Shown here piece after piece: positions 13,041 through 56,487 of a DNA stretch of 64,000 nt (position 1 is its first letter; every line of letters begins with the position of its first letter). The notes beneath the pieces were generated by a model. It was given only the letters and a program-made list of their open reading frames with translations. It was not told where the DNA came from and made no database searches. Source of the stretch: Oscillospiraceae bacterium (GTDB lineage Bacteria; Bacillota; Clostridia; Oscillospirales; Oscillospiraceae); assembly GCA_021770845.1 (NCBI GenBank), contig JAETQF010000012.1:1-64000 (forward strand), written 5' to 3'. The position numbers were made by a program, and so were the translations under genes.

Positions 13041-13733
13041 GTGACAAGGAAGGTTTTGGTGCTGGAGGACGAGGCCAACATCCGCAGCTTTGTGGTGATC
13101 AACCTGAAGCGGGCGGGGTACGACGCCATCGAGGCGGGCACCGGCGAGGAGGCCCTGGCCCTGATCCAGCAGAACCCGGATATCCAGGTGGCCCTGCTGG
13201 ACATCATGCTGCCCGGGGAGATGGACGGCTTCGAGGTGTGCCGCCGCATCCGGGCGGGCAATTCCCAGATGGGCATCATCATGCTCACCGCCCGCACCCA
13301 GGAGATGGACAAGGTCAGCGGCCTGATGACCGGGGCGGACGACTACGTGACCAAGCCCTTTTCCCCGGCGGAGCTCACCGCCCGGGTGGACGCCCTGTTC
13401 CGCCGCACCGGCGGCGGGGCCATGCGGGACGCGGACGAGATCGAGCAGCCGCCCTTCCTGCTGAACACCCGGAACCGCACCCTGGAGAAGAACGGCAAGC
13501 GGGTGAAGCTGACCCAGGTGGAGTATTCCATCGTGAAGCTGTTCATGGAGAACCCGGGCAAGGCCCTGTCCCGGGAGGAGATCCTGGAGGCGGTGTGGGG
13601 CACCGAGTTCCTGGGCGAGCTGAAAATCGTGGATGTGAACATCCGCCGCCTGCGGATCAAGCTGGAGGACGACCCCCAGAACCCGTCCTTCGTGATCACG
13701 GTCTGGGGCTTCGGCTACAAGTGGGAAGCGTAA
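13041..13733 (+). CDS. OmpR-family response regulator
   Basis: REC domain (VLVLEDEANIRSFV, VALLDIMLPGEMDGFEV) plus winged helix ending in VITVWGFGYKWEA. Confidence 0.93.
   Translation: MTRKVLVLEDEANIRSFVVINLKRAGYDAIEAGTGEEALALIQQNPDIQVALLDIMLPGEMDGFEVCRRIRAGNSQMGIIMLTARTQEMDKVSGLMTGADDYVTKPFSPAELTARVDALFRRTGGGAMRDADEIEQPPFLLNTRNRTLEKNGKRVKLTQVEYSIVKLFMENPGKALSREEILEAVWGTEFLGELKIVDVNIRRLRIKLEDDPQNPSFVITVWGFGYKWEA
13667..13726. repeat. 60-bp direct repeat, copy 1 (inside the response-regulator 3' end)
   Basis: GGACGACCCCCAGAACCCGTCC...GGCTACAAGTGGGA, identical to 13899..13958. Confidence 0.95.
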
Positions 13734-13898
13734 TCGCGGGATAAGGGGGCGTCCTCCCGCCGCGCAAGCGGCGCCGGCGCGAGTGCGCCGCACAAGCGTT
13801 TTCGCGGAGCGAAAACCTTGAAATCGACGGGATTCACTCCCGGCGATTTGAGTAAAATCCGGGGCCCCGCAAAAGCCGCCCTTTGGCTTTTGTGGGGC
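13727..13898. other. 172-bp hairpin-array insert between the duplicated 60-bp segments
   Basis: Five successive stem-loops: 13758-13773, 13775-13790, 13798-13816, 13821-13849, 13865-13897. Confidence 0.75.
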
Positions 13899-13958
13899 GG
13901 ACGACCCCCAGAACCCGTCCTTCGTGATCACGGTCTGGGGCTTCGGCTACAAGTGGGA
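13899..13958. repeat. 60-bp direct repeat, copy 2 (orphan copy of the response-regulator 3' end)
   Basis: Identical to 13667..13726; continues to GAGATCTGA, giving an alternative C-terminus KWEI*. Confidence 0.95.
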
Positions 13959-14007
13959 GATCTGAGCAGGTAAGGCAGAGCCCGGAAGTGAGAGGGGAGG
14001 TGGCGGC

Positions 14008-15504
14008 ATGGAGCAGGAAAACCGGGGCAAACGGAAGAAAAAGAAGCCGGTAAAGCCGGAACCGGCGGCGGAGGAGGTTCAGCCGGCGGCGGACAGGCGT
14101 CCCCGGGGCAAGCTGCGGTGGCGCTGGCTGTTCAACACCCTGGGGGCCACCCTGGTGGTGGTGGCCACCGCGGTGACGGCGTTCTCGCTGGCCATGTACA
14201 GCTACTACACCTCCACCATTCTGGCCACCCTGGAGAGCAAGGCCCAGACCGCTGCCGGGATGTTCCGCAACTATACGGAGACCACCTATCTTTACACCGC
14301 CCGGCAGTTCGTCAACCAGTTTGAGGAGAAGAACTACATCGAGGTGCAGATCCTCAGCGCCGGCGGCCGGGTGCTGATGTCCTCCATGATGGACATATCC
14401 GGGGCGGGGGTGGAGACCCCGGATGTGCCCAAATCCATTGAGAGCAAGCGGGTGGAGGCCTACACCGGGCCCGATCCCAACACCGGCGACCACATCATCG
14501 CCGCCTCCGCCCCCGTGGTGTACAACGGCACGGTGGTGGGGGTGGTGCGCATGGTGACCTCCCTGCGGCAGGTGGAGAACCAGATGTTCCGCATCATCGC
14601 CATCACCTCCGGCTTGGGGCTGGTGATCCTGATCGTGATGGGCGTCACCGCGTCCTATTTCATCAAATCGGTGCTGGATCCGGTGATCCGGGTGACGGAG
14701 ACCGCCAAGCGGATCGCCACCGGCAGCTACGGCGTGCAGATGGAGTCCCGCTCCAACGACGAGATGGGGGATCTGGTGGACGCCATCAACGATATGTCCA
14801 TGAAGATCGATCAGGCGGAGCGCACCCAGTCGGAATTCATCTCCTCCGTGTCCCACGAGCTGCGCACCCCCCTCACCGCCATCAGCGGCTGGGCGGAGAC
14901 GCTCTACAACGGCGAGGTGCGGGACGCGGCCGATGTGAAGAAGGGCATGGGCATCATTGTGTCCGAGGCCCAGCGCCTCACCCGGATGGTGGAGGAGCTG
15001 CTGGAGTTCTCCCGGATGGAGACGGGCCGGTTCAACCTGTCGGTGGAGCCCATCGACATTCTGGCGGAGCTGGAGGACGCGGTGTACACCTACCGGGAGT
15101 TCTTCCGCCGGAAGAACCTGGAGCTGGACTATACCGAGTGCGACGAGGATCTGCCCATCATCAGCGGCGACCCGGAGCGGCTGCGGCAGGTGTTCTGCAA
15201 CCTGCTGGACAACGCGGACAAGCACGGCGGCTCCGGCGGGCGCATCGAGGTGTCGGTGGGCCGGGAGGAGGACGATGTGGTGATCCGCATCCGGGATCAC
15301 GGCCCCGGTGTGCCGGAGGACGAGCTGCCCTACATTAAATATAAGTTCTACAAGGGCTCCTCCAAGGCCCGGGGCTCGGGCATCGGCCTGGCCGTGTGCG
15401 ACGAGATCATCAACAGCCACAACGGGACGCTGGACATCGGCAACGCCCCCGGCGGCGGCTGCGTCGTCACCATCCGCCTGCCCATCGGGGTGGAGAACGT
15501 GTAG
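14008..15504 (+). CDS. Sensor histidine kinase with HAMP domain
   Basis: FISSVSHELRTPLTAISGWAETL, VFCNLLDNADKHG, GSGIGLAVCDEIINSHNG. Confidence 0.93.
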   Translation: MEQENRGKRKKKKPVKPEPAAEEVQPAADRRPRGKLRWRWLFNTLGATLVVVATAVTAFSLAMYSYYTSTILATLESKAQTAAGMFRNYTETTYLYTARQFVNQFEEKNYIEVQILSAGGRVLMSSMMDISGAGVETPDVPKSIESKRVEAYTGPDPNTGDHIIAASAPVVYNGTVVGVVRMVTSLRQVENQMFRIIAITSGLGLVILIVMGVTASYFIKSVLDPVIRVTETAKRIATGSYGVQMESRSNDEMGDLVDAINDMSMKIDQAERTQSEFISSVSHELRTPLTAISGWAETLYNGEVRDAADVKKGMGIIVSEAQRLTRMVEELLEFSRMETGRFNLSVEPIDILAELEDAVYTYREFFRRKNLELDYTECDEDLPIISGDPERLRQVFCNLLDNADKHGGSGGRIEVSVGREEDDVVIRIRDHGPGVPEDELPYIKYKFYKGSSKARGSGIGLAVCDEIINSHNGTLDIGNAPGGGCVVTIRLPIGVENV

Positions 15505-54862: not shown

Positions 54863-56405
<1,543 letters not shown>

Positions 56406-56410
56406 GGTTA

Positions 56411-56443
56411 CAAACTCCCCCGGCATAGCCGGGGGAGTTTGTG
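56411..56443 (+). terminator. First guaB terminator hairpin
   Basis: ACAAACTCCCCCGGC-ata-GCCGGGGGAGTTTGT. Confidence 0.75.
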
Positions 56444-56451
56444 TCAGCATA

Positions 56452-56487
56452 GGAAGCCCCAGCTACGCCCCTAATCCCCAATAAGGA
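56452..56487. repeat. guaB 3'-end repeat, copy 2 (diverged)
   Basis: AGGAAGCCCCAGCTACGCCCCTAATCCCCAATAAGG. Confidence 0.8.

Follow-up and report, generated by a model that had tools for sequence, protein, structure and literature searches.

Organization of the regulator locus

The window, i.e., the whole stretch of 64,000 nucleotides analysed here from an Oscillospiraceae bacterium (contig JAETQF010000012.1, positions 1 to 64,000), carries an OmpR/PhoB-type response regulator gene (13041–13733, plus strand), supported by its open reading frame and by Pfam matches to Response_reg (4e-26) and Trans_reg_C (4e-25), followed by an undisturbed sensor histidine kinase gene (14008–15504, plus strand; Pfam HisKA and HATPase_c). 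Between them, the last part of the regulator occurs twice. The segments 13667–13726 and 13899–13958 form a maximal direct repeat, exact over 60 bp with a spacing of 232 and with different bordering bases on either side, which encodes the end of the winged-helix domain and encloses an insert of 172 bp (13727–13898). The first copy reads ...YKWEA*, with its stop codon (13731–13733) lying within the insert, and the second reads ...YKWEI*, with a TGA at 13963–13965. An earlier, sequence-only reading had described this duplication, the new stop provided by the insert and the preservation of the regulator, and all three are confirmed; the downstream copy is indeed the ancestral end, since the empty site of a relative (G017) also terminates in KWEI*.

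The locus is ordered as U, D1, t, guide, core and D2, all on the plus strand, where U is the upstream part of the host gene. D1 (13667–13733) is the functional gene end supplied with the unit, and D2 (13899–13965) is the displaced native end, with an intact frame and no start codon; both are the same over 13667–13726 and differ in the last codon and the stop. The spacer t (13727–13744), 3' of D1, gives the alanine codon and the TAA stop. It is followed by a feature missed in the sequence-only reading, an inverted copy of the split site: the segment GGGGGCGTCCTCC (13745–13757) is complementary, with one mismatch, to GGAGGACGACCCC (13664–13676), which comprises the last 3 nt of U and the first 10 nt of D1. 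The core (13760–13899) is a covarying, RNA-like hairpin element, containing the most conserved hairpin, CAAG-CGTTTT...AAAAC-CTTG (13793–13820; invariant alignment columns), and a terminal CCCC...GGGG hairpin (13865–13897), which is preceded by another GGGG (13861–13864) and has D2 starting right behind it. Since D1 and D2 do not differ within the 60 bp, this copy alone gives no proof of replacement; recombination between them at this locus would lead to homogenisation and excision.

Within 600 bp, no other comparable repeat was found in the whole window, except for two. At its edge (51–761), a 178-bp stretch recurs at a spacing of 533 bp with 71% identity. At 56362–56486, the end of guaB (IMP dehydrogenase) and a terminator precede a second, decayed version of this gene end (77% over 43 nt), which has a terminator of its own but lacks a core and may be left over from an earlier gene-end replacement.

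A family of hairpin units

Relatives of the insert were found in the same genome, in 37 of the 42 genomes of the genus, with per-genome counts of 0 to 39 in the covariance-model search, and in other Oscillospirales, with 16 of 147 genomes sampled across the order being positive, including a diverged form in another family. The covariance model, built from 42 copies, has 30 pairs, 18 of them with compensatory changes, and the window copy scores 107.3 bits against it; its membership and the structure of the family are established. Record titles of the pattern-scan matches (Flavonifractor, Pseudoflavonifractor, Intestinimonas and Oscillibacter) place the family in Oscillospiraceae. The Rfam covariance models gave no match over the window element or seven further loci, and in the literature searched (bioRxiv not covered as such) these elements are not described, with only the yeast WHO elements, discussed below, matching the architecture. 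The duplicated gene end flanks one member of an apparently undescribed family of mobile units in gut bacteria, which are tiny, non-coding, hairpin-rich and inserted near the ends of housekeeping genes.

Copies share one arrangement, in which U and D1 are followed by a spacer t (0 to about 50 nt), the complementary segment, the core and D2, and the 3' junction is fixed, D2 starting immediately after the terminal CCCC...GGGG hairpin. The mobile unit, formed by the tail of D1, t, the guide-like segment and the core, measures about 150–230 bp and has no open reading frame apart from the carried gene end. Among the copies without a nearby repeat, no long autonomous version was found between a distant repeat and the core; such copies often lie beside tRNA terminators or look decayed. 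At six loci (L085, L096, L097, L172, L194 and L265), the cores adjoin apparent tRNA genes on the opposite strand, and the terminal hairpin has apparently been swapped for the tRNA terminator. The core was present in 3 of 2.9 million viral contigs, indicating that phages are not its usual carrier.

The diverged form was observed in two genomes of family f7 (G030 and G070; L301–L320), with a GAAGTTGCTTGCC/GGCAAGCAACTTC hairpin and at least 22 copies per genome, mostly without repeats and sited in intergenic repeat arrays; one of its loci (L318) has a gene-end repeat of 45 bp, and another (L307) shows three gene ends in succession and two identical cores. Separately, a different dispersed repeat, GGGGCCCCCGCAAAGCCGCCCTTTGGCTTTGTGGGG...GACTTTGCCCCGACG, lies 3' of a crt-like gene (L008; G000:C16:37377-37415 and flanks), with an exact 50-bp gene-end repeat on both sides and its own stretch of complementarity to the split site, and may represent a second family using the same mode.

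Duplicated gene ends as diverged coding alleles

When 106 copies were chosen by the core pattern alone, direct repeats (score of at least 25) flanked 80 of them, compared to 4 of 303 displaced control positions. The genome that holds the window is a draft (82% complete), which would leave room for an assembly artefact; however, the same anatomy occurs in isolates, in the closed genome AP018533.1 (L132 and L141) and at about 100 independent loci, and this recurrence excludes both an artefact and chance. A plain tandem duplication does not account for the locus either, as no insert follows the second copy, and an ordinary MITE with a long target-site duplication is contradicted by the repeats, which range from 28 to 107 bp with no fixed length, mostly end at a stop codon and are accompanied by no terminal inverted repeats. 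The breadth of the family thus already refutes these readings, and a DDE transposon is rejected on the same features of the repeats. The earlier remark that a 60-bp repeat exceeds the length of an ordinary target-site duplication is supported, and gene-end segments of about 30–105 bp recur in copies at other sites.

In 81 copies, the host gene and the unit have the same orientation. In 51 of these, the similarity between D1 and D2 stops no more than 4 nt from the stop codon, and exactly there in 22, and beyond the two stops the flanks are generally unrelated; D2 has an intact frame and the same length as D1 in 75 of the 81. Another 12 copies are inserted antisense at gene starts, with the repeat covering the start region. 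In several of these (L120, L094 and L279, among others), the ATG marks the end of D1, and the spacer provides a ribosome-binding site that is new and differs from the native one. These gene-end boundaries are established for the family, and the ends of the repeats respect stop and start codons, unlike what a duplication from a fixed staggered cut would do.

The codon changes between D1 and D2 comprise 215 synonymous and 42 non-synonymous ones (215/257, 84%), compared to 26% synonymous expected from the neutral decay of a dead D2, and 229 of the 312 differences fall at third positions. Since the differences are mainly synonymous, D1 and D2 diverged as two working alleles, and the displaced copy was recently coding. 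At the junction the divergence is about 2%, and it climbs to 14% at the stop; the first bin is biased low because alignments begin on a match, the trend persisting past it; this gradient fits a crossover inside D1, with recipient sequence on the left and unit sequence on the right. The sequence-only reading had pointed to an unusual insertion or a template switch, and the view of the repeat as simply a long duplication of that origin is not supported: in general the two copies behave as diverged coding alleles, the first has its end at the stop codon, and the tail travels with the insert between species at the YhbY-like site described below. The upstream copy is thus most plausibly a replacement gene end that the element brings along.

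The restored gene end and the direct repeats also recall the anatomy of integrative elements, and the native left and unit-type right of D1 would suit a non-autonomous integrative mini-element, mobilised by a trans-acting site-specific recombinase that uses the gene end as attachment site (D1 as attL, D2 as attR), as in gene-end islands. Nevertheless, the targets are dozens of unrelated genes with no shared attachment core, the unit has no integrase and the inverted segment has no role in such a scheme, making this origin very improbable.

The target-complementary segment

Directly 5' of the core hairpins, copies possess a segment of 9–21 nt complementary to the top strand, with the match crossing the U/D junction and usually covering 3–9 nt on the U side and 5–17 nt on the D side. 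A complementarity score of at least 10 was reached by 66 of 79 copies, compared to 5 of 392 shuffled pairings. Between species at the same site, the segment follows its own target at 70 of 74 variable positions, a proportion that is an upper bound because the positions were picked inside matched segments. It may pair as RNA with DNA. At the informative positions, it matches D1 at 13 and D2 at 9, with no clear preference for D2, so that a guided-cleavage model does not account for immunity of the occupied allele, which is its chief weak point. No PAM or TAM logo was found upstream of the segment, and the junction bears a weak AAGGA^GG.

Movement between species and site lineages

The clearest comparison comes from a gene that we take to be YhbY-like from its protein motif. 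At this site, three species (G005, G042 and G048) have one 150-bp unit, 98.7–99.3% identical, made of the last codons, the stop, the complementary segment and the core hairpins; meanwhile, the left parts of D1 are 84–95% identical, D2 84–90% and the DNA beyond D2 43–76%. Each species retains its own displaced native end, D2, which in G048 matches the empty site of G018 at 98.8% identity, compared to 87% for D1 of G048. Consequently, a short, mostly non-coding tract has moved horizontally between species, replacing the gene end each time.

The regulator site of the window is occupied in its own genome and two others (G000, G016 and G047) and empty in intermingled relatives, a pattern to which precise loss by recombination between D1 and D2 could contribute. 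For 36 of 59 copies, the nearest core was one at the same gene in a different species, where 2% would be expected; the units are thus site-specific lineages, and the first colonisation of a site is rare. In addition, units occur in tandem at five loci (L107, L108, L142, L183 and L307) and among further matches of the model search, and these arrays show repeated invasion.

The strongest rival to an active process is passive spread, in which no homing enzyme acts, gene-end alleles are exchanged by ordinary homologous recombination between related strains and the complementary segment is either a leftover or part of an RNA structure whose match is maintained by intrastrand template correction. 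Homology on both flanks would allow such exchange, the mosaic D1 resembles its product, the segment matches D1 as often as D2 and the enzyme searches described below gave no candidate. On the other hand, the replaced tract in the three species is only about 150–210 bp and both its borders lie near the unit, nearly all copies have the segment across the junction, and the occupancy of 37 of 42 genomes, the tandem re-invasion and the dozens of host genes suggest an active process, so that passive spread is considered unlikely, though to be taken seriously.

Candidate partner enzymes and proposed mode of action

A reverse transcriptase is present in 25 of the 42 genomes of the genus, but it is missing in the genome with 39 copies (G020, 96% complete) and in other well-sampled carriers. 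IscB exceeded the cut-off in 1 of the 42 genomes and TnpB in 14, the latter missing where copies are abundant. Thus, all three were rejected as obligate partners, their presence showing no correspondence with copy number among these 42 genomes.

The RNA-like structure of the unit could also point to target-primed retro-insertion, where a reverse transcriptase would copy the hairpin RNA at a nick in the split site and template switching or snap-back would generate the gene-end repeat and the inverted segment, making the unit a bacterial counterpart of SINEs with long target duplications. The 3' junction fixed right after the terminal GGGG hairpin, the G-rich start of D, able to prime on GGGG, and the inverted segment at the junction agree with this route, which could explain the rare first colonisation of a site. 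As a general mechanism it is improbable, because D1 ends at stop or start codons instead of random points, D2 evolves as coding sequence and several well-sampled carriers lack a reverse transcriptase.

The best explanation, to which we assign a probability of roughly 60%, is homing by gene-end replacement, performed by a segment-guided unit with a trans-acting enzyme. The unit would home into alleles that lack the element, at their split site U^D2, whereby the host gene would gain the terminal codons and stop of the unit (D1) and its native end would be displaced downstream as D2. For this, the unit is presumably transcribed, and the 9–21-nt segment 5' of the hairpin scaffold would guide a putative trans-acting enzyme to U^D2 of empty alleles, where it may cut or prime synthesis, the repair then probably copying the unit from the donor allele. 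The fuller proposal, put forward tentatively and with less than even confidence, is that of a natural protein-less RNA-guided homing element, in which a hairpin guide RNA with its own target-matching segment, joined to a rescue gene end, would use a trans-acting host or plasmid enzyme to spread across species and many housekeeping genes.

Comparison with known mobile elements

Homing that replaces gene ends is, as such, already known from the WHO elements of Torulaspora and Lachancea yeasts, which home into one point of a housekeeping gene and replace its 3' end each time, the old 3' end staying downstream as a fragment (Coughlan et al. 2020, PMC7282813). They form clusters by repeated homing, leave the two parts of the gene with discordant histories, encode an intein-like endonuclease with zinc fingers, mainly target FBA1 and have demonstrated allele-specific resistance (PMC7282813). 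Similarly, the bacterial element has the functional end upstream and the displaced native end downstream, its new end comes from a different allele or lineage, as seen in the synonymous divergence and the YhbY-like unit, and its tandem clusters arise from repeated homing. The bacterial units differ in being hairpin-based, in occupying many host genes and in bearing a segment complementary to the split site; moreover, they have no open reading frame or endonuclease and are therefore not members of the WHO elements.

Other systems share single features. Group I and II introns carry guide sequences (IGS and EBS) complementary to the joined exons and, together with inteins, form site-specific lineages in conserved housekeeping genes, as the units do; however, splicing is unnecessary here, the unit duplicates the gene end and lies 3' of the stop, no Rfam intron model matches and the antisense insertions at gene starts argue against an intron. 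The guide RNAs of IscB and Cas9 have the guide on the 5' side of the scaffold, and the segment joined to the hairpin scaffold resembles these OMEGA and CRISPR-type RNAs (IscB, TnpB and Cas9), although the unit lacks a PAM/TAM-like motif, a consistent IscB or TnpB in its carriers and an Rfam match. Bacterial MITE, REP and RUP repeats have short or absent target duplications and are not known to carry a gene end or a target-complementary segment; the units are likewise short, palindromic, intergenic, multicopy and non-autonomous but possess both. To our knowledge, no protein-less unit with its own target-complementary segment has been described.

Implications

If the proposed homing is true, these units would constitute a class of selfish DNA absent from the literature and libraries searched, small enough to pass as intergenic repeats, which rewrites conserved genes of common gut bacteria at their ends and is apparently programmed by the target-complementary segment. 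Such homing would explain the otherwise puzzling duplicated gene ends, predicts a new programmable enzyme in Oscillospirales and would make the units a bacterial counterpart of the yeast WHO elements. In the carrier genomes, annotation and phylogeny based on gene ends would be affected.
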